This document shows, piece after piece, positions 16,223-58,282 of a DNA stretch of 64,000 nt. Origin of the DNA: an uncultured Prevotella sp. (GTDB lineage: Bacteria; Bacteroidota; Bacteroidia; Bacteroidales; Bacteroidaceae); NCBI GenBank assembly GCA_946402275.1, contig CAMIVY010000001.1, forward strand, positions 62,001-126,000. Reading direction: 5' to 3'. Within the stretch, counting starts at the first letter, position 1. Every line of letters begins with the position of its first letter. Under the pieces are notes generated by a model. It was given only the letters and a program-made list of their open reading frames with translations, was not told the origin of the DNA and did no database searches. A program made the position numbers and the translations under genes.

Positions 16223-16254
16223 TAAAGAGTAGCGCCTACGGGCGCAACTCTTTA
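16223..16254 (+). terminator. Perfect hairpin between the HU-like gene and the small ORF (attenuator or processing site)
   Basis: TAAAGAGTaGCGCC-tacg-GGCGCaACTCTTTA. Confidence 0.6.
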
Positions 16255-16276
16255 AATTAGAAATTAGAAATTAGAA
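16254..16276 (+). repeat. Heptad array AAATTAG x3 directly before an ATG
   Basis: AAATTAG AAATTAG AAATTAG AA|ATG. Confidence 0.85.
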
Positions 16277-16387
16277 ATGAAGAAGAATCGTTTTATTGAG
16301 GTAGTGGTGAAGGTAGTAGTAGCCGCTCTCACAGCATTCCTGACGGCACTGGGCACGACCAGTTGCATGGGATACGGACCGTTTTAG
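16277..16387 (+). CDS. Smalltalk-like small protein
   Basis: 36 aa MKKNRFIEVVVKVVVAALTAFLTALGTTSCMGYGPF; not in the supplied ORF track. Confidence 0.75.
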   Translation: MKKNRFIEVVVKVVVAALTAFLTALGTTSCMGYGPF

Positions 16388-16400
16388 CGGACTTCGCCCT

Positions 16401-16442
16401 AGTGAAGAGTGAAGAGTGAATAGTGAAACATCAAGAGTGAAA
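16401..16442 (+). repeat. Heptad array (AGTGAAG/T/A), 6 units
   Basis: AGTGAAG AGTGAAG AGTGAAT AGTGAAA CATCAAG AGTGAAA. Confidence 0.8.
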
Positions 16443-31376: not shown

Positions 31377-31378
31377 AT

Positions 31379-31427
31379 CCTCTCACCTCTTACCTCTTAC
31401 ATCTCACCTCTCACATCTTACCTCTTA
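31379..31427. repeat. Heptad array C(C/A)TCT(T/C)A, 7 units, at a convergent gene junction
   Basis: CCTCTCA CCTCTTA CCTCTTA CATCTCA CCTCTCA CATCTTA CCTCTTA. Confidence 0.9.
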
Positions 31428-31428
31428 C

Positions 31429-33078
31429 CTACTCCGGTACCGCATAGCGATCGCCAGTTTCTTTCACAATTCTTCGAGCAAAAGATGGTGAGTATCCAGG
31501 ACGCTTCACTGTAGCTCCTAGTCCATATTTCCCTTTGGTAAATTGTCCGTTTACATCTGGCTTGACAGCCATATCGTTATATTTCACAATCAAATAAGTG
31601 GCCAGTTTCTTCCAACATGCCAACATTTGCTGAGCCTGGTCGATACTGTAGTCATTCAAGTATTGTTGCATAGCCTTTGACTCCATTGTGATGGCTTTCT
31701 GCTCTATGACAGGCTGCTGCTTAAAATATGAGTTTTCTAACGAGTCACGAACTGCCTTTAATGAAGGGAACAAAACGGAATAACGTGGATAAACCATATT
31801 AGCCACCCAGTTTTCTACCCAGAAAGCATTCTTGTCGCTGAAAGTCAAATCGTCAGCACCTGGCGTATTATAACATTCTGGCTGTTTAGTCATCGAGCAA
31901 TAGATGGGGGTATAGGCTACCATATTGGGATCGTCATTGCCAAACCACAAACATCCACCAACCTCTCGTGGCAGCCAAGAACGCATCTGCGATACGAAAG
32001 TCCATGCCGTCTGTTGGGTAGAAACAGGACGTTCATTGAAGTATTTCTTACCATCCACCTTATAATATAATGGTGTAGGACGATATGGCATCTGCCAGAT
32101 ACCAGCTCCTACGTCAGTAGAATCAATGGCAATTGGTGTACCCTCGTAATGGTCACGCATGGCTGCCATCACATCGGCAACACTCACCTTACCGTCGGGT
32201 TTTACCCATAACGGCATATCTTCTGCATTTTTGTCTTTTCCCAGTGCCCAAGGCAAATAGCGCTCCATCCCTTTTACATGACGATTAAAGAAGGTCCACA
32301 CACGGGCATCGCAGATACGACGTCCACCAAAATCGGGAAAGGCATAGGTGTTCTTCCAATTGAATTCCTCGTCCTTCCCCGTGAACCAACCCATCTTGCG
32401 GGCATATTTGATGACATTCTTGGAATACAGCACATTCTCCTTGTCTTTCAAGGGGAATTGTCCGATACGACTCTGGTTGGCGTGTCCGCAGATAACATCA
32501 TCTGGGATTCTGCGAGCTACCCATACCACACGTTCTTTAGAAACTTTTCGATCAGGTCCACAACCCTGCATCTCCAGAATCCATGCTTCGTCAGGATCGC
32601 AAATGGTAAACGTTTCTCCTTCTGAATAATATCCGTAAGTTTCTACCAATGAGGTCATTATACGAATAGCTTCACGTGCAGATTTAGACCTTTGTAAGGT
32701 GATATAAATCAACGAACCGTAGTCGATAAGTCCTGTTGAATCTACCATTTCCTCGCGTCCGCCATAGGTTGTCTCACCAATAGTTACCTGCCACTCATTG
32801 ATATTTCCTATCACGTTGTATGTCTCCTCCGCTTCTGGAATCTCACCCAGATATTTATTCGTATCCCACTCGTAGATTTTTCGCATGTCACCTTTTTGGT
32901 GCTTTGCTGCAGGATAATGGTATAACCACATAAATGCTCCATAAGAATCTGCATTGTAGGAGCATATCACACTTCCGTCCGCAGAAGCTTTCTTGCCGAC
33001 AATGAAATTAGTGCAGGCCATCGCATATAAGCCTGTCACAAATGCTGCTGTTAAAAGAAATAATCGCTTTTTCATCAT
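31429..33078 (-). CDS. C69 family dipeptidase (PepD-like)
   Basis: ACTNFIVGKKASADGSVICSYNADSYG. Confidence 0.88.
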   Translation of the reverse strand: MMKKRLFLLTAAFVTGLYAMACTNFIVGKKASADGSVICSYNADSYGAFMWLYHYPAAKHQKGDMRKIYEWDTNKYLGEIPEAEETYNVIGNINEWQVTIGETTYGGREEMVDSTGLIDYGSLIYITLQRSKSAREAIRIMTSLVETYGYYSEGETFTICDPDEAWILEMQGCGPDRKVSKERVVWVARRIPDDVICGHANQSRIGQFPLKDKENVLYSKNVIKYARKMGWFTGKDEEFNWKNTYAFPDFGGRRICDARVWTFFNRHVKGMERYLPWALGKDKNAEDMPLWVKPDGKVSVADVMAAMRDHYEGTPIAIDSTDVGAGIWQMPYRPTPLYYKVDGKKYFNERPVSTQQTAWTFVSQMRSWLPREVGGCLWFGNDDPNMVAYTPIYCSMTKQPECYNTPGADDLTFSDKNAFWVENWVANMVYPRYSVLFPSLKAVRDSLENSYFKQQPVIEQKAITMESKAMQQYLNDYSIDQAQQMLACWKKLATYLIVKYNDMAVKPDVNGQFTKGKYGLGATVKRPGYSPSFARRIVKETGDRYAVPE

Positions 33079-38820: not shown

Positions 38821-38843
38821 TTAAATTATTAATAATGTTATTA

Positions 38844-38892
38844 CTATTTTCTCTATTCACTATTCACTTTTCACTATTCTCTATTCACTATT
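38844..38892. repeat. Heptad array C(A/T)CT(A/T)TT, 7 units, between atpB stop and atpE
   Basis: CTATTTT CTCTATT CACTATT CACTTTT CACTATT CTCTATT CACTATT; abuts the atpB stop at 38893. Confidence 0.88.
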
Positions 38893-39936
38893 CTACCCAT
38901 GATGCTCCTTGTGTGCCAACCCGATGAACACAGCGCTCAGCATGGTGAACACGTATGCCTGCACAAAGGCAACCAACAACTCTAGAGCATTCATGAACAG
39001 TAGCATAAGGATACTGAACGAATTCAGTCCCAATCCATATCCGACGCCCATTGACCAACCGAGGAAAATCACACAAGTAAACGAAAGTATCACAGCGTGA
39101 CCTGCCATCATGTTGGCAAAAAGACGAATCATCAGAGCAAAAGGCTTGGTAAATACGCCAAACAGCTCGATGACGGGCATGATGGGTATAGGAGCCTTTA
39201 AGAACATAGGAACCTCCGGCCATAGTATCTCTTTCCAATACTCTTTGTTGCCAAAGATGTTGATGGCTAACATCGTACACAGTGCTAGGAAGAACGTGAT
39301 ATTGATATTTCCAGTCACGTTGGCACCTCCAGGGAATACAGGAATCAAGCCAATCAGGTTACATGTCAAGATAAAGAAGAATACGGTGAGCAGATACGGG
39401 GCATAAGGCTTGTAATGCTTCTCGCCTATCGATGACTTAATCAGGTCATCATGTATCATCATCACGATCATCTCCATAGCTCCAACAAAACCCTTAGGTG
39501 CCTCTTTCTTGGCATCATGGCTTTTATACCATCTTGCACAACTTAGGAATACGATGATGAGCACGCCAACCACAATCCATATCTGTAATACAGATTTTGT
39601 GATACTCAAGTCCAGCGGACGCTCTGAAGTACCATCAGCCATTTGCTCGTATATCTTACCATGAGCCTCAGGGTTGAAGAAGAAGCCCTCAGGCAACGAG
39701 TGTGCAGTGCAGAAATGCCATTCCCCCGTATTACCGCTACGGATAATGATTGGCAGTGGAATACTCAGATGGTTGCCTTCATAGGTGGCAATATGCCACT
39801 CGTAGGCGTCTGCCAGGTGTTCCAACACAATCTCTGGAATGTTGAGTTCTTCTCCCTCTGCATGCTCGTTAGCGAGTGCAGGAAGGGCTGAAAACATCAG
39901 CATTACCAGGAGATATATAGACTTTAAGTGTTTCAT
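38893..39936 (-). CDS. atpB: F-ATP synthase a subunit
   Basis: MIRLFANMMAGHAVILSF. Confidence 0.95.
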   Translation of the reverse strand: MKHLKSIYLLVMLMFSALPALANEHAEGEELNIPEIVLEHLADAYEWHIATYEGNHLSIPLPIIIRSGNTGEWHFCTAHSLPEGFFFNPEAHGKIYEQMADGTSERPLDLSITKSVLQIWIVVGVLIIVFLSCARWYKSHDAKKEAPKGFVGAMEMIVMMIHDDLIKSSIGEKHYKPYAPYLLTVFFFILTCNLIGLIPVFPGGANVTGNINITFFLALCTMLAINIFGNKEYWKEILWPEVPMFLKAPIPIMPVIELFGVFTKPFALMIRLFANMMAGHAVILSFTCVIFLGWSMGVGYGLGLNSFSILMLLFMNALELLVAFVQAYVFTMLSAVFIGLAHKEHHG

Positions 39937-40379: not shown

Positions 40380-40625
40380 CTATTTAAGTTCTATGCACAC
40401 ACTCACCGTATTCTTCTGTACTTCCACGAAGCCTCCGGTGATGTCTAATGACGTGTTTGTGCCATCAGCCTTGGTATATTCTACCACACCTTTATCCAAC
40501 GTTGAGATAATAGGCGCATGATTACTTAGAATCTCAAACATGCCGGCAGTACCAGGTACCACCACACGCTTTACATCGCCTTCAAACTCAATCCTTTCAG
40601 GAGAAACTATCTTTAGCTGCAACAT
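40380..40625 (-). CDS. atpC: F-ATP synthase epsilon subunit (ATG at 40625 preferred over the TTG at 40634)
   Basis: MLQLKIVSPERIEFEGDVKRVVVPGTAGMFEILSNHAPII. Confidence 0.92.
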   Translation of the reverse strand: MLQLKIVSPERIEFEGDVKRVVVPGTAGMFEILSNHAPIISTLDKGVVEYTKADGTNTSLDITGGFVEVQKNTVSVCIELK

Positions 40626-40653
40626 AATTATCAATTGTCAATTATCAATCATA
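40626..40653. repeat. Heptad array AATTATC/AATTGTC, 4 units, immediately upstream of the atpC ATG
   Basis: AATTATC AATTGTC AATTATC AATCATA. Confidence 0.75.
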
Positions 40654-40697
40654 ATTGTCCGCTCAATCTCGGATTGCTATTCCTTTAGACTAAAGAA

Positions 40698-49684: not shown

Positions 49685-50536
49685 ATGTTAAGAATAGCTG
49701 TACAATCAAAAGGTCGTCTGTTCGACGACACCATGAATCTGCTTGCTGAAGCAGACATCAAGGTTAGTGCCTCCAAGCGTACGCTGTTGGTGCAGTCCAG
49801 TAATTTCCCCCTGGAGGTCCTTTACCTTCGCGACGACGATATTCCCCAGTCGGTAGCATCCGGAGTGGCCGATATCGGTGTGGTGGGCGAAAACGAGTTC
49901 ATTGAGCGGGGCGAGGATGCTGATATTATCTCGCGCCTCGGGTTTTCAAAGTGCCGCTTGTCACTGGCCATTCCCAAGGAGATAGACTATCGCGGTGTCA
50001 ACTGGTTTAATGGCAAGAAGATTGCCACTTCCTACCCCAACATCCTGCGTAACTATATGAAGGAGAACCATATCGATTGCGAGATTCATGTCATTACCGG
50101 TTCTGTGGAAATCAGTCCGGGCATTGGTCTGGCCGATGGCATCTTCGACATCGTTTCTTCCGGTTCAACGCTGGTCAGCAACAACCTGCGCGAGGTGGAG
50201 GTGGTGATGCAAAGCGAGGCCCTGCTCATCGGAAACAAGAACCTCTCTGCTGCCAAACGTTCCACATTAGAGGAAATGCTTTTCCGTTTCAAGGCTGTCA
50301 AGGATGCTGAGGATAAGAAATATGTACGCATGAATGCGCCCAAGGCCCGTCTTCAGGAAATCATCAACGTGTTGCCTGGTCTGAAGAGTCCCACCATCAT
50401 TCCTCTGGCTGATGACGACTGGTGCTCCGTACATACCGTATTAGACCAGAAGCGTTTTTGGGAAATTATTGGTAAGCTGAAAGAGATGGGTGCCCAGGGC
50501 ATCTTGGTGACCCCCATTGAGAAAATGATACTTTAA
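49685..50536 (+). CDS. hisG: ATP phosphoribosyltransferase (long form)
   Basis: MLRIAVQSKGRLFDDTMNLL ... GIFDIVSSGSTL. Confidence 0.95.
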   Translation: MLRIAVQSKGRLFDDTMNLLAEADIKVSASKRTLLVQSSNFPLEVLYLRDDDIPQSVASGVADIGVVGENEFIERGEDADIISRLGFSKCRLSLAIPKEIDYRGVNWFNGKKIATSYPNILRNYMKENHIDCEIHVITGSVEISPGIGLADGIFDIVSSGSTLVSNNLREVEVVMQSEALLIGNKNLSAAKRSTLEEMLFRFKAVKDAEDKKYVRMNAPKARLQEIINVLPGLKSPTIIPLADDDWCSVHTVLDQKRFWEIIGKLKEMGAQGILVTPIEKMIL

Positions 50537-50580
50537 CATTTAACATTAAAGATTATAGATTAAATTTCAGGATTTAATGA
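50532..50580 (+). repeat. Heptad-phased junction hisG/hisD, 7 units
   Basis: TTTAACA TTTAACA TTAAAGA TTATAGA TTAAATT TCAGGAT TTAATGA; contains the hisG stop and hisD start. Confidence 0.65.
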
Positions 50581-51863
50581 AGATTTATAAGAATCCCTCT
50601 AAAGATAAGTGGGCTGAGATTATAGCTCGTCCTCGCCTAGACCTGACCAAGCTGAACGATACCGTTTCCAAGGTATTGGCAGATGTCAAGGCTCGTGGCG
50701 ACGAGGCCGTCAAGGAGTATGAACAGAAATTCGACCATGCTACGCTGAACAATCTGTCTGTCACTGAGGAAGAGATGGACGAGGCCGAGAAACTGGTAAG
50801 CAACGAGTTGCGCGATGCTATCATCCTTGCTCATCATAATATCAAGGTGTTCCACATCTCCCAGCGTTTTGTCGGTCAGAAGGTGAAGACCCAGGAAGGA
50901 GTGGTGTGCTGGCAGAAGAGCGTAGCCATCGAAAAGGTAGGTCTTTATATTCCTGGAGGCACGGCACCCCTGTTCTCTACGGTGCTTATGCTGGCTACAC
51001 CTGCCAAGATAGCAGGCTGCCGTGAAATAGTGCTCTGTACGCCTCCCAACAAGGAAGGCAAGGTGAATCCTGCCATTCTGGTGGCTGCCCGTATCGCAGG
51101 TGTCAGCAAGATTTTCAAAGCCGGTGGTGTACAGGCCATTGGTGCTATGGCTTATGGTACGGAGAGTGTCCCCAAGGTCTTCAAGATTTTCGGTCCTGGC
51201 AATCAGTATGTGATGGCTGCCAAGCAACAGGTGAGTCTGGACGAGGTGGCTATCGATATGCCGGCAGGTCCTTCTGAGGTCTGCGTACTGGCTGACGCTT
51301 CTGCCAATGCCGAGTTTGTGGCTGCTGACCTGTTGTCGCAGGCAGAGCATGGCATCGACTCACAAGTGCTCTTCATTACCACCAGCGAGGAGAAACTCAA
51401 CGAGGTACAGGCCGAGGTCAATCGCCAACTGCAACAGCTGCCCCGTAAGGAGATGGCCGCCAAGGCTCTCGAGAACAGCTGTTATGTACTCGTCGATTCT
51501 GACGACGAGATGATCTCCCTCTCCAATGCCTATGCCCCCGAGCACCTGATTCTGCAGGTGAACGACTACGAACAGATGGCTGAGCGCGTCATCAATGCAG
51601 GAAGTGTATTCCTGGGACCTTATGCCTGTGAGAGTGCCGGCGACTATGCCAGTGGTACCAATCACACATTGCCTACTCACGGTTATGCCACTGCCTACAA
51701 TGGCGTGAACCTCGACTCCTACTGTCGTAAGATAACCTTCCAGCACCTGACAGCAGAAGGCATCCGCCACATCGGACGTGCCGTAGAGCTGATGGCTGAA
51801 GCTGAACAGCTGGATGCACATAAGAATGCGATGAGCGTAAGAATACGATCAATAGAAAAGTGA
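50577..51863 (+). CDS. hisD: Histidinol dehydrogenase
   Basis: GLYIPGGTAPLFSTVLML, AGPSEVCVLAD. Confidence 0.96.
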   Translation: MKIYKNPSKDKWAEIIARPRLDLTKLNDTVSKVLADVKARGDEAVKEYEQKFDHATLNNLSVTEEEMDEAEKLVSNELRDAIILAHHNIKVFHISQRFVGQKVKTQEGVVCWQKSVAIEKVGLYIPGGTAPLFSTVLMLATPAKIAGCREIVLCTPPNKEGKVNPAILVAARIAGVSKIFKAGGVQAIGAMAYGTESVPKVFKIFGPGNQYVMAAKQQVSLDEVAIDMPAGPSEVCVLADASANAEFVAADLLSQAEHGIDSQVLFITTSEEKLNEVQAEVNRQLQQLPRKEMAAKALENSCYVLVDSDDEMISLSNAYAPEHLILQVNDYEQMAERVINAGSVFLGPYACESAGDYASGTNHTLPTHGYATAYNGVNLDSYCRKITFQHLTAEGIRHIGRAVELMAEAEQLDAHKNAMSVRIRSIEK

Positions 51864-51875
51864 AAAGTGAAAAAT
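51855..51875 (+). repeat. Heptad array across hisD stop and hisC start
   Basis: GAAAAGT GAAAAGT GAAAAAT|G. Confidence 0.8.
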
Positions 51876-52917
51876 GTTTAGTTTACAGCAATTAGTCAGA
51901 AAGAATATATGGGAGTTATCACCCTACTCCTCTGCCCGTGATGAATATTCCGGCAAGGAAGCTCATGTGTTCCTGGATGCCAACGAGAATCCATACAACA
52001 CCCCGTACAACCGTTATCCCGATCCACTGCAGCGCGAATTGAAAAGTGTGCTGAAGAAGGTGAAGGGCGTTCCTGAGAATATGATTTTCCTGGGCAATGG
52101 TTCCGACGAGGCTATCGACATCGCCTATCGGGTATTCTGCAATCCGGGGGGTGACAACGTGGTAGCCATCGCTCCAACGTATGGCATGTACAAGGTATGT
52201 GCAGACATCAATGATGTTGAATACCGTACTGTACTGTTGGACGACCACTATCAGTTCTCTGCTGACAAGCTGCTGGCAGCCTGCGATGCCAACACCAAGA
52301 TTATCTGGCTCTGCTCACCCAACAACCCTACGGGCAACTCGCTTAATCGTGACGAGATGCTAAAGGTTATCAACCAGTTCGAAGGCATCGTCATCATAGA
52401 CGAGGCCTATATCGACTTTGCACAACAGCTGTCCATGCGTCAGGAACTGGTGACCCACCCCAACCTCATCATTCTGCAGACCATGTCGAAGGCATGGGGC
52501 TCAGCAGCCATCCGCCTGGGAATGGCTTTTGCCTCCAACGACATTATAAATATATATAATAAGGTGAAATATCCCTATAATGTCAACCAACTGACGCAGA
52601 CCCAGGCATTGTCTGCCCTCAAGGATCCCTTCGAGGTGGTCAAGTGGGTACGCATCCTGTTAGACGAGCGCCACCGCCTGATACACGCTGTCCAGGAGTT
52701 GCCCTTTGTAGAGGAAGTGTTCCCTACCGATGCCAACTTCTTCCTCACCCGTGTAAAGGATGCACAGGGCTGTTACGACTATCTCGTCAACCAGGGTATC
52801 ATCGTACGCAACCGCTCCCGTGTTCAGCTATGCCATAACTGTCTGCGTATCACCGTTGGCAGCCATTCTGAGAACAACGAACTGATCTCAGCCTTGCGAT
52901 GTTATACTTCTGAGTGA
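51874..52917 (+). CDS. hisC: Histidinol-phosphate aminotransferase
   Basis: [18 protein letters not shown] ... SPNNPTGN ... [16 protein letters not shown]. Confidence 0.95.
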
Positions 52918-52940: not shown

Positions 52941-52961
52941 TTAATTTTTTAATCTTTAATC
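52941..52961 (+). repeat. Heptad array TTTAATC, upstream of MFS gene
   Basis: TTAATTT TTTAATC TTTAATC. Confidence 0.7.
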
Positions 52962-52964
52962 TTT

Positions 52965-54257
52965 TTGGACCGCCTTTGGAATCGTAACTATATCAAGGTG
53001 ATGACAGCCAATTTCGCACTGTTCTTCGCCTTTTATTTACTCACACCCCTGTTGCCTCTGTATCTCTACGAGACATTCGGGGCTACTAAGGACGTGATAG
53101 GCCTCGTCCTGTCAGGCTATACCATTCTGGCCCTCCTGTTCCGTCCTTTCAGCGGTTTTATAGTCGATTCCTTTCCCAGGAAGACCGTTTTACTCATCTC
53201 CTTTTCTGCCTTTGCCATCTTCTTTGCAGGCTATCTCGCAGCCTCTTCCCTGCTCCTGTTCACCATTGTCCGTACCCTTCATGGAGGCCCCTTTGGTGCC
53301 GTTACCGTAGCCAATTCCACGGTAGCCATCGACGTGCTGCCTTCCTCCCGTCGCAATGAGGGAATAGGCTATTACGGGTTGAGTAACAACCTGGCCATGG
53401 CCATCTCACCCACCTTTGCCATCTTCGTCTATAGTGAGACCCACAACTTCCAACTACTCTTCTGGCTAGCCTTTGCCATAGCCACCTTCGGTCTGTTAGT
53501 CGATTCCACCGTCACCCTCCATAAACCTCATCCCTCCTCCTTCATCCCTCATTTTTCACTTTTCCGCTCGACCTTTGGTCGCTTTGTACCTTGGTCAAAG
53601 ACTTTTCACTTTTCACTTTCTAAACTCTCCTTGGACCGTTTCTTCCTGAAGAGCGGTTGGTTGATAGGCGTTAACATGGTGTTCTTCGGTTTCTGTTTTG
53701 GCGTACTCAGCAACTATCTCGCCATCTATGGCAAACAAGTACTCCACATGACGGGAGGTACCGGTGCCTGGTTCATGCTCTGCTCCATCGGACTCATCCT
53801 CTCCCGCCTGCAGGGAGGCAAAGCCCTTCGTGAAGGCAAGCTTACCCAAAATGCTGCTGAGGGTATGGTCATCTCCCTCATTGGCTACACCTTATTTATT
53901 CTCATGCCAACAATAGGCGGTAGCAAATTTTTCACTTTTCACTTTTCACTTTTCACTTCCATAGGCTACTATGGCTCCGCCCTCCTCATCGGTTTGGGCA
54001 ACGGCCACCTCTGGCCTGCTTTCCAGAACATGATGATTTCCGTAGCCCGTCATAACGAACGTGGCACAGCCAACTCCACCATCCTCGTATCGTGGGATTT
54101 AGGCATGGGGCTTGGCATCCTCGTAGGTGGTGTTCTGGCTGAGCTCATCAGATATTCCTTTGCCTTCTGGACAGTAGCCATCATAAATTTAGCGGGTGTC
54201 ACACTTTATTTCGTGCGCACCCGCCAATTCTACTTTACTCACTTACTGTCCGAATAG
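52965..54257 (+). CDS. MFS transporter (TTG start, or the ATG at 53000)
   Basis: 430 aa polytopic; LSGYTILALLFRPFSGFIVDSFPRKTVLL. Confidence 0.88.
   Translation: MDRLWNRNYIKVMTANFALFFAFYLLTPLLPLYLYETFGATKDVIGLVLSGYTILALLFRPFSGFIVDSFPRKTVLLISFSAFAIFFAGYLAASSLLLFTIVRTLHGGPFGAVTVANSTVAIDVLPSSRRNEGIGYYGLSNNLAMAISPTFAIFVYSETHNFQLLFWLAFAIATFGLLVDSTVTLHKPHPSSFIPHFSLFRSTFGRFVPWSKTFHFSLSKLSLDRFFLKSGWLIGVNMVFFGFCFGVLSNYLAIYGKQVLHMTGGTGAWFMLCSIGLILSRLQGGKALREGKLTQNAAEGMVISLIGYTLFILMPTIGGSKFFTFHFSLFTSIGYYGSALLIGLGNGHLWPAFQNMMISVARHNERGTANSTILVSWDLGMGLGILVGGVLAELIRYSFAFWTVAIINLAGVTLYFVRTRQFYFTHLLSE
53526..53620. repeat. Composite heptad element inside the MFS CDS
   Basis: CCTCATC CCTCCTC CTTCATC CCTCATT TTTCACT, then core 53568-53600, then TTTTCAC TTTTCAC. 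Confidence 0.85.
53929..53956. repeat. Perfect heptad array TTTTCAC x4 inside the MFS CDS
   Basis: (TTTTCAC)4, read as FTFHFSLFT. Confidence 0.92.
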
Positions 54258-55497: not shown

Positions 55498-58065
55498 TTA
55501 TTCATTATTCTCTATGTTATCAGCCTGTTCAGGGGCATCGACCTGCGGGGTATCGATAGCTGAATCGTTCAGCTCCTCATCGACAATCTCTGCCTCCTCG
55601 ACATCCTCTTCCTGGCTGCTCGTTACCTTGCATACCGAGGCAATGGTGTCGTTCTTCTTGGTGAGGTTGATGAGGCGAACGCCTTGCGTGGCACGACCCA
55701 TCACACGGACATCAGCCACCTTCAGGCGGATGAGGATACCCGACTTGTTGATAATCATCAGGTCGTTCTCGTCGGTCACCACCTTAATGGCTACCAGACG
55801 ACCCGTCTTCTCTGTGATGTTCAGCGTCTTCACACCCTTGGTACCACGGTTGGTCTTACGATAGTCTTCTATCTCGGAGCGCTTGCCATAACCATTCTCA
55901 GATACCACCATGATGGTCTCTACAGAGGGGTCGTTGACACATACCATACCTACTACCTCGTCATCGTCACCATCCAGACGCATACCGATGACACCGGTAG
56001 AAACGCGGCCCATCGTACGTACCTGATCTTCATTGAAGCGTACGGCACGACCGTTGCGGTTTGCCAGCAGGATCTCGTTATGGCCATTGGTCAGACGAAC
56101 ACCTACCACCTCGTCACCCTCGTTGATGTTGATGGCGCGGACACCAGCGGCACGTACGTTCTTATAAGCGTCGAGGCGTGTCTTCTTGATGATACCCTGC
56201 TTGGTGGCAAACATCACGTAATGGCTCTGCAGGAACTCTTCGTCGTTGAAGTTCTTCACACGCAGCACGGCATTGATGGCATCGTCGGGCTCGATGTTCA
56301 GCATATTCTGAATAGCACGGCCCTTCGAGTTCTTGTCACCCTCGGGAATCTCGTAACACTTCTGCCAGTAGCAGCGGCCCTTCTGCGTGAAGAACAGCAG
56401 CGTGTTATGCATCGTGGCAGGATAGATATATTCCGCAAAGTCGTTATCACGATGGCGGGCAGCCTTGGCTCCCACGCCACCGCGTCCTTGCTCGTGGAAC
56501 TCATCCAGGTGGGTACGCTTGATATATCCCATGTGTGAGATGGTGATAACCACGGGATCATCGGGATAGAAGTCCTCTGCATTGAACTCATGGTCGAAGG
56601 GGATAATCTCAGTACGACGCTCGTCGCCATATTTCTCTTTCACCTCCTGCAGTTCCTGCTTCATGACCTCCTTGCAACGCTCGGGATTGTTCAGGATTTC
56701 CTCCAAGTCAGCAATCAGCTTCATCAGGTCGTCATACTCTTGGTGCAGCTGGTCAACACGCAGGCCGGTCAACTGGCTCAGACGCATATCAACAATGGCC
56801 TTCGACTGCAGCTCGTCCAGGTTGAAACGGGCTTCCAGGTTACGCTGGGCATCGCTGGGAGTCTTACTATTTCTGATAATGTGAACCACCTCGTCGATGT
56901 TGTTCACGGCAATAATCAATCCTTCGAGGATATGGGCACGCTCCTGTGCTTTCTTCAGGTCGTACTTGGTGCGACGGATGGTCACATCATGACGGTGCTC
57001 TACGAAGTACTTGACGCACTCTTTAAGCGAAAGCAGACGGGGACGTCCCTTTACCAATGCAATGTTGTTAACTGAGAATGAGCTCTGTAGAGCTGTCATC
57101 TTAAAGAGTTTGTTAAGCAGCACATTGGCATTGGCATCGCGCTTGCAATCCACAACGATACGCATACCCTGACGACCAGACTCATCGTTCACATTGGCTA
57201 CACCTTCTATCTTATGCTCGTTGGCCAGGTCGGCAATATACTTCACCAAGTCTGCCTTGTTCACACCATAAGGTATCTCGGTCACCACAATCTTGTCGTG
57301 GGTCTCTGTAGTCTCAATCTCAGCCTTGGCACGCATCACGATACGTCCGCGACCGGTCTCATAGGCATCGCGCACACCAGCCAGTCCGTAGATATAGGCT
57401 CCTGTGGGGAAGTCTGGACCGGGGATATACTGCATCAGCCCGTCGGTATCAATGTCAGGGTTGTCGATATACGCGCAGCAGCCGTCAATCACCTCTGCCA
57501 GGTTATGGGTAGGCATGTTCGTTGCCATACCCACGGCAATACCGTTACCGCCATTCACCAGCAGGTTAGGAATCTTGGTAGGCATCACGCTGGGCTCCAC
57601 CAGCGAATCGTCGAAGTTGTTCACCATATCGACGGTATCCTTCTCTAGGTCATCCATGATATGCTCGCCCATCTTCGAGAGACGGCACTCCGTATAACGC
57701 ATGGCGGCCGGTGAGTCGCCATCTACCGAACCGAAGTTTCCTTGTCCATCTACAAGCGTATAGCGCATGTTCCACTCCTGGGCCATACGTACCAAGGCAC
57801 CATATACCGAGCTGTCACCGTGGGGGTGGTACTTACCGAGCACCTCACCAACCACGCGCGCGCATTTTTTATAAGGTTGTGTAGAAACGTTGTTAATGCC
57901 CATCATACCGTACAGGATACGGCGATGAACAGGTTTAAAACCATCACGGACATCAGGGAGGGCACGAGCCACGATGACCGACATCGAATAGTCGATGTAC
58001 GAAGACTTCATCTCCTCCTCAATGTTGATTTTTACAATTCTGTCGTTGTCAAAAGTTTGATCCAT
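55498..58065 (-). CDS. gyrA: DNA gyrase subunit A
   Basis: YIDYSMSVIVARALPDVRDGFKPVHRRILYGM. Confidence 0.96.
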   Translation of the reverse strand: MDQTFDNDRIVKINIEEEMKSSYIDYSMSVIVARALPDVRDGFKPVHRRILYGMMGINNVSTQPYKKCARVVGEVLGKYHPHGDSSVYGALVRMAQEWNMRYTLVDGQGNFGSVDGDSPAAMRYTECRLSKMGEHIMDDLEKDTVDMVNNFDDSLVEPSVMPTKIPNLLVNGGNGIAVGMATNMPTHNLAEVIDGCCAYIDNPDIDTDGLMQYIPGPDFPTGAYIYGLAGVRDAYETGRGRIVMRAKAEIETTETHDKIVVTEIPYGVNKADLVKYIADLANEHKIEGVANVNDESGRQGMRIVVDCKRDANANVLLNKLFKMTALQSSFSVNNIALVKGRPRLLSLKECVKYFVEHRHDVTIRRTKYDLKKAQERAHILEGLIIAVNNIDEVVHIIRNSKTPSDAQRNLEARFNLDELQSKAIVDMRLSQLTGLRVDQLHQEYDDLMKLIADLEEILNNPERCKEVMKQELQEVKEKYGDERRTEIIPFDHEFNAEDFYPDDPVVITISHMGYIKRTHLDEFHEQGRGGVGAKAARHRDNDFAEYIYPATMHNTLLFFTQKGRCYWQKCYEIPEGDKNSKGRAIQNMLNIEPDDAINAVLRVKNFNDEEFLQSHYVMFATKQGIIKKTRLDAYKNVRAAGVRAININEGDEVVGVRLTNGHNEILLANRNGRAVRFNEDQVRTMGRVSTGVIGMRLDGDDDEVVGMVCVNDPSVETIMVVSENGYGKRSEIEDYRKTNRGTKGVKTLNITEKTGRLVAIKVVTDENDLMIINKSGILIRLKVADVRVMGRATQGVRLINLTKKNDTIASVCKVTSSQEEDVEEAEIVDEELNDSAIDTPQVDAPEQADNIENNE

Positions 58066-58098: not shown

Positions 58099-58220
58099 CT
58101 TTGACTTAAAGGTACAAAGCGACTTCGTCGATTACTTACTTCTTACCTCTTACATCTTACCTCTTACCTCTTACATCTTACCTCTTACTTCTTACCTCTT
58201 ACCTCTTACATCTTACCTCC
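58099..58220. repeat. Composite heptad element in gyrA leader: core 58099-58131 plus 12 heptads 58132-58215
   Basis: TTACTTA CTTCTTA CCTCTTA CATCTTA CCTCTTA CCTCTTA CATCTTA CCTCTTA CTTCTTA CCTCTTA CCTCTTA CATCTTA. Confidence 0.92.
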
Positions 58221-58282
58221 ATTTCGCGTTTAAGGCACTTTTCAGCCCCGCTGACGCGTTTTTACTATTTTCTTAAACTCTG

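Follow-up and report, generated by a model that had tools for sequence, protein, structure and literature searches.

Heptad repeat elements read in frame within two loops of a Prevotella MFS transporter

The transporter gene and its two variable loops

The stretch of DNA analysed here (64,000 nt, called the window throughout) comes from a Prevotella genome of 3.38 Mb in 73 contigs, 89% complete, whose relatives are rumen Prevotella/Xylanibacter. On its forward strand, an intact ORF with a TTG start (52965-54257) encodes a 430-aa MFS transporter (Pfam MFS_1, E=1.8e-44) with weak similarity to NorA. The gene adjoins, on its upstream side, a hisC-like aminotransferase gene (51874-52917). The initial annotation had assigned two heptad segments to a single MFS gene, and both do lie inside this one intact 430-codon reading frame. 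The gene was found in 118 of 200 same-genus genomes, and 101 distinct orthologues, which start with MERLWNRNY, were aligned. Outside two loops, these proteins showed almost no change in length, with residues 225-311 and 337-420 constant across the 101. The ORFs of two orthologues (L083 and L114) run to ~790-813 codons, which suggests a fusion with a downstream domain. An AlphaFold model of the window's protein was of moderate quality (mean pLDDT 64).

Site 1 (53526-53630, forward strand) is the variable TM6-TM7 inter-domain loop with its inserted element, and its length ranges from 20 to 72 residues in the 101 orthologues. In the AlphaFold model, residues 188-226 form a stretch of pLDDT <50 flanked by helices 162-181 and 232-258, in agreement with the TM6-TM7 loop expected by the initial annotation. 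The segment lay within a few bases of where it had been placed (53529-53630, encoding the peptide HPSSFIPHFSLFRSTFGRFVPWSKTFHFSLSKLS), but its description as heptads throughout did not hold, as a 37-nt two-hairpin core sits between the heptads. A weak CCTCATC-like heptad run (53529-53550) is followed by a left flank, TCATTTTTCACTTT (53549-53562, with TTTTCAC-type heptads at 53551-53563), then by the core, CGCTCGACCTTTGGTCGCTTTGTACCTTGGTCAAAGA (53565-53601; stem 1 53569-53573/53577-53581, stem 2 53582-53586/53596-53600), and by a right flank of (TTTTCAC)2 plus TTT (53602-53619), all on the forward strand. The two flanks form a 14-nt direct repeat with 93% identity and 57 nt spacing, and the repeats are themselves heptads. 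Across 19 versions of the core, 18 from the same genome and one from genome G149, stem 2 covaries between U-A, C-G, and G-C with the partner always matching, and pairing was lost in slid controls of the alignment. Fold-back structure of the window's insert was not significant (z -1.3), and none of 4227 Rfam models gave a match at gathering score.

Site 2 begins with GGCGGTAGCAAA (53916-53927), the right half of a TTTGCTACCGC...GCGGTAGCAAA hairpin that is present in complete form in the orthologue L117. It continues into a perfect array, (TTTTCAC)4, on the same forward strand at 53929-53956 (TRF score 60), exactly the coordinates first given for it. The array occupies the TM9-TM10 loop and the start of TM10; in the AlphaFold model its heptads fall at the turn between TM9 and TM10 and at the beginning of helix 327-360, with helix 293-318 preceding. 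This loop is 10-41 residues long in the 101 orthologues.

Dispersed copies in the genome

Both segments consist of elements that are scattered through the intergenic DNA of their own genome, as had been proposed. Site 1, core and heptads together, has ~30 related places in the same genome, the best at 96-98% identity over ~60 bp; examples are C27:7814 (96% over 67 bp) and C55:4683 (98%). The site 2 junction, GGTAGCAAATTTTTCAC, occurs in 13 places, i.e. 12 besides the MFS gene, compared with none for a reversed-pattern control, and (TTTTCAC)3 gave 40 overlapping matches in ~20 places.

Period-7 runs were defined by 18-of-21 identity, a rule that returned seven runs in the window, or by a looser cut-off of 17-of-21. 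Among periods 2-15, only 7 and its multiple 14 passed, and shuffled sequence gave none. The window is 91% coding, yet by the looser rule seven of its eight arrays lay outside genes, the exception being the array in the MFS gene.

The other window arrays are of various heptad kinds and lie mainly outside genes (16249-16285, 16398-16431, 31377-31431, 38841-38894, 40625-40654, 50531-50564, and 58131-58221). The longest, (CTTACCT)12, stands upstream of a gyrA-like gene (55498-58065). Heptads are also found immediately 5' of the start codons of the MFS gene (TTTAATC, 52949-52963) and the hisC-like gene (AGTGAAA, 51858-51873). In the genome as a whole, 11 of 26 intergenic TTTTCAC arrays have TAnnTTTG, the Bacteroidota-type -7 box, within 45 nt downstream (loci L003, L006, L008, L010, L018, L020, L021, L026, L028, L029, and L030), compared with 0/26 upstream on the same strand and a background of 1.4% per 45 nt. 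TTTTCAC arrays may be part of promoters or lie at a fixed distance from them.

Localisation, turnover, and selection among orthologues

The 101 orthologous CDSs contained 52 lag-7 runs, which are not 52 events, since orthologues share ancestry and the counts overstate event number. These runs, distributed over 44 genes, fell in loop 1 (21) and loop 2 (31) with none elsewhere, and the two loops make up only ~10% of the gene's length. Multiples 14 and 21 excepted, lags 4-6 and 9-13 gave no run and lag 8 gave one, and codon-shuffled MFS genes contained no lag-7 runs. Given this lag-7 specificity in both the window and the orthologues, together with the empty shuffled controls, the segments are not products of chance. 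The proposal that repeat elements have entered coding DNA in frame is well supported, by copies in the same genome and by the confinement of 52/52 lag-7 runs to two loops.

Alignment of the orthologues also bore out the expectation that the segments are lineage-specific, as both the kind and the length of insert differ among lineages. Heptads at the MFS loops include TTTTCAC, TTCACTC, TCAATTG, KTCAATG, CTCACCT, GAGTGAA, GAGGAAA, CATCAGC, and AAGTTCA, and other lineages carry long fold-backs or GC-rich palindromes. Site 1 of the window and its three nearest relatives (L062, L061, and L032) presents four different sequences, and conserved peptides free of length variation, which the initial annotation had named as evidence against insertion, were clearly absent there. 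In L048 (genome G150), site 1 holds a 105-nt fold-back (dG -63, z -12.3) that recurs at near full length in more than a dozen other places of that genome, and fold-backs with heptad arms also occupy loop 1 in L117 (z -7.6) and L112 (z -6.3). GC-rich palindromes of the form CCCCTCCC...GGGAGGGG were found at loop 1 of L138, L054, L059, L120, and L049, and in L054 the insert includes the two-hairpin core seen in the window, reversed in orientation and flanked by GC-rich sequence. The GC-rich palindromes are read as peptides such as TSPNPSKGGG and PLPLGRGE.

The three genomes searched that have TTTTCAC at site 2 held 40, 19, and 18 three-unit matches, and 12 of 30 genomes held none. The in-gene CATCAGC heptad has same-genome copies that match loosely. 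Same-genome copying fails as the source of every in-gene heptad: GAGGAAA, the perfect three-unit heptad of L112 (genome G031), has no copy elsewhere in that genome, so not every array need derive from a current same-genome copy. Local unit expansion after arrival probably also occurs. The sample consists mostly of short-read MAGs, one per species, and all of these comparisons are between species; a site 1 heptad run is also present in one isolate, MN60 (L083).

The inserts are in frame, without stop codons, and hydrophobic at site 2. Since 7 leaves a remainder of 1 when divided by 3, successive units of a heptad array fall into each of the three frames by turns. A long array can therefore survive in a gene only when TAA, TAG, and TGA are absent from the phases that its units occupy and its total length is in frame. 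It follows that arrays whose cycle includes a stop triplet get through only where their units vary in step with the frame. In L117, phase-0 units are GAGTTAA (3/3), phase-2 units are GAGTGAA (3/3), and phase-1 units are mixed. These choices avoid stops exactly, as GAGTGAA in phase 0 would yield TGA and GAGTTAA in phase 2 would yield TAA. All site 2 arrays (31/31) encode peptides with GRAVY >0, and site 1 arrays are mostly hydrophilic, with a mean GRAVY of -1.1. Selection acts as a sieve on frame, stops, and chemistry.

Period-7 inserts were also present in other host genes. An RluA-type pseudouridine synthase has a loop, bounded by KTYWAIV and HWLVRNE, that spans 38-81 residues among the 31 genomes measured and contains period-7 inserts in four of them (L048, L212, L213, and L214). 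The inserts of L048 and L212 have their two arms inverted, like those of fold-back elements. This loop is a second hotspot for in-frame period-7 inserts. A period-7 stretch also lies in the ThiL-like gene of L105.

Origin of the inserts and comparison with known systems

We favor, at a probability of roughly 0.78, a reading in which non-autonomous repeat elements became part of the MFS reading frame at two permissive loops and were replaced over evolutionary time, with no slippage switch. Rumen Prevotella genomes would contain many short, non-autonomous, modular elements built of tandem heptads and a small hairpin core and located mostly between genes. Two of these elements, or parts of them, would have joined the reading frame in the disordered cytoplasmic TM6-TM7 linker and the TM9-TM10 loop, and the MFS loop would then serve as a hotspot whose inserts are replaced over evolutionary time. 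Arrival and replacement may reflect exchange between heptad arrays (ectopic recombination or gene conversion) or the action of a mobilising enzyme, followed by purifying selection; donor, direction, and enzyme of this spread are our inference. The insertion event itself was not seen in the 101 orthologues, whose loops have diverged too far to show a duplicated target or to define the empty site precisely. The variation is whole-insert replacement and not single-unit slippage.

The initial annotation had suggested a phase-variation switch, in which slippage would add or remove one heptad, shift the frame, and so turn the transporter off or on. Heptanucleotide arrays mediate slippage switches in other bacteria, (TTTTCAC)4 is perfect, and 7 is not a multiple of 3, so a one-unit change breaks the frame. 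The orthologues do not behave in this way: 100 of 101 were intact and none was frame-broken at either site, which for the ~100 intact genes, compared between species only, sets an upper 95% limit of about 3% on frame-broken alleles. In 42 further genes split by the aligner, partly from the same species as the 101, both parts were always in the same frame. Two candidate frameshift alleles were rejected, L211 (genome G099) as a contig end only and L074 as a nonsense codon outside both sites. At site 2, four units is short for slippage, and the unit number is four in all four species examined (the window, L062, L061, and L032). The window's site 2 is identical to those of L062 and L032 at 51/51 bases and to that of L061 at 50/51, whereas silent-position identity in the rest of the gene is 84% for L062, 64% for L032, and 65% for L061. 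Silent positions are thus better conserved in the array than in the remainder of the gene; for L032, 17/17 silent positions match within the array versus 64% elsewhere (P about 0.0006). The site 2 array is either frozen or homogenised with its dispersed copies, and either way its unit number is unchanged among these species. We consider a switch of this kind very improbable.

It is also conceivable, but unlikely, that the heptads arose de novo, with unconstrained loops and a bias toward 7-nt tandem duplication yielding lineage-specific heptads with no mobile element. The many heptad kinds at the same sites and the confinement of GAGGAAA to the gene in G031 would agree with this explanation, as would an earlier survey reporting that, of tandem repeats with units of 5-11 nt, heptads are the most frequent in the majority of genomes, and attributing them to polymerase slippage (summarised in PMC4679880). 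The complex parts are beyond such a bias, however: the covarying 37-nt two-hairpin core, whose copies elsewhere are 96-98% identical, the GCGGTAGCAAA junctions, and the 105-nt fold-back, which has a dozen relatives. The de novo explanation is already weakened as regards the window's own segments, and it may well account for the expansion of units after arrival. Least probable of all is that the loops are ancestral, functionally selected peptides whose DNA looks repetitive by chance. Site 2 is hydrophobic and often has 13-15 extra residues across lineages, as this would predict, but the amino-acid sequence is not conserved, the stretch is absent in ~29% of orthologues (the 10-residue class, 29/101), and site 1 is unconstrained in length and sequence. 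A bolder extension of our preferred reading, which we regard as possible though doubtful, is that the heptad elements form an active genome-wide system whose copies, those in genes included, are homogenised by concerted evolution. Linker loops of several proteins would then keep being replaced, and loops would be diversified naturally under the drive of some as yet undescribed activity of recombination or mobilisation.

Repeat elements lying in frame within genes are known chiefly from Rickettsia and from a scattering of REPs. Here, in a lineage of free-living gut bacteria whose sequenced genomes are very numerous, the same loops are refilled by different repeats in one species after another. 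These rumen Prevotella loops make it measurable how noncoding repeats become protein and what selection accepts in frame, stops, and hydrophobicity. For annotation, period-7 peptides in Bacteroidota (such as FTFHFSLF and RVKSEELRVKSEE) may be translated repeats and not conserved domains, and such loops should not be called phase-variable on sequence alone. Our literature search, which covered heptads and intergenic repeats in Prevotella, turned up no previous account of this case.

Several known repeat families resemble these elements in part. Cyanobacterial STRR heptanucleotide repeats (PMC2670836) and TAACTGA repeats (PMC4679880) are likewise dispersed 7-nt tandem repeats, mostly intergenic, like the seven of eight window arrays outside genes, and some of them hairpin-forming; theirs are described as intergenic, whereas the arrays here also occur in genes, are read through, and differ in heptad kind by species. 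BrickBuilt of Porphyromonas gingivalis is a Bacteroidales MITE-like element containing a minisatellite and showing promoter activity, but it has 23-nt units and known terminal inverted repeats and is always intergenic (PMC4596501). REPs of the GTAG and CGTC families are short multi-copy hairpins, some inside ORFs, and different REPs occupy nearly the same recB site in two species (PMC3733652). In contrast to REPs, the elements here have heptad arrays attached, no GTAG/CGTC foot, and no core-flanked RAYT. Neither tag is present in the core alignment (A2), and the GTAG of GCGGTAGCAAA lies within a stem. Four Y1_Tnp loci in the genome (L188-L191, three of RAYT size) have flanks without either core, and a RAYT/REP origin was rejected. 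Because foot and RAYT association were both looked for and not found, the elements are not filed as REPs. Two of these loci, L189 and L190 on contig C19, are near-identical RAYT-size Y1 transposase genes; GATCAGGGGACGGTTCTCTGATC-like inverted ends occur at L190 and partly at L189, and are not linked to heptad cores.

Closest in function are the Rickettsia palindromic elements, along with REPs inside ORFs, described in PMC10969869 and PMC3733652. As characterised in those accounts, the Rickettsia elements are multi-copy palindromes found in frame in unrelated genes, a pseudouridine synthase gene among them. The elements described here are similarly multi-copy and dispersed, lie in frame in several unrelated genes (MFS, RluA-type, and ThiL-like), and are kept where the protein tolerates them, with a pseudouridine synthase gene as a host in both systems. 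Whole-element palindromes are seen in the relatives L048, L117, and L112 (z -6 to -12), compared with z -1.3 for the window's insert. Unlike the Rickettsia elements, those described here belong to Bacteroidota and combine 7-nt tandem arms, modular cores, and half-elements, and the same two loops are reused by different elements in many species.
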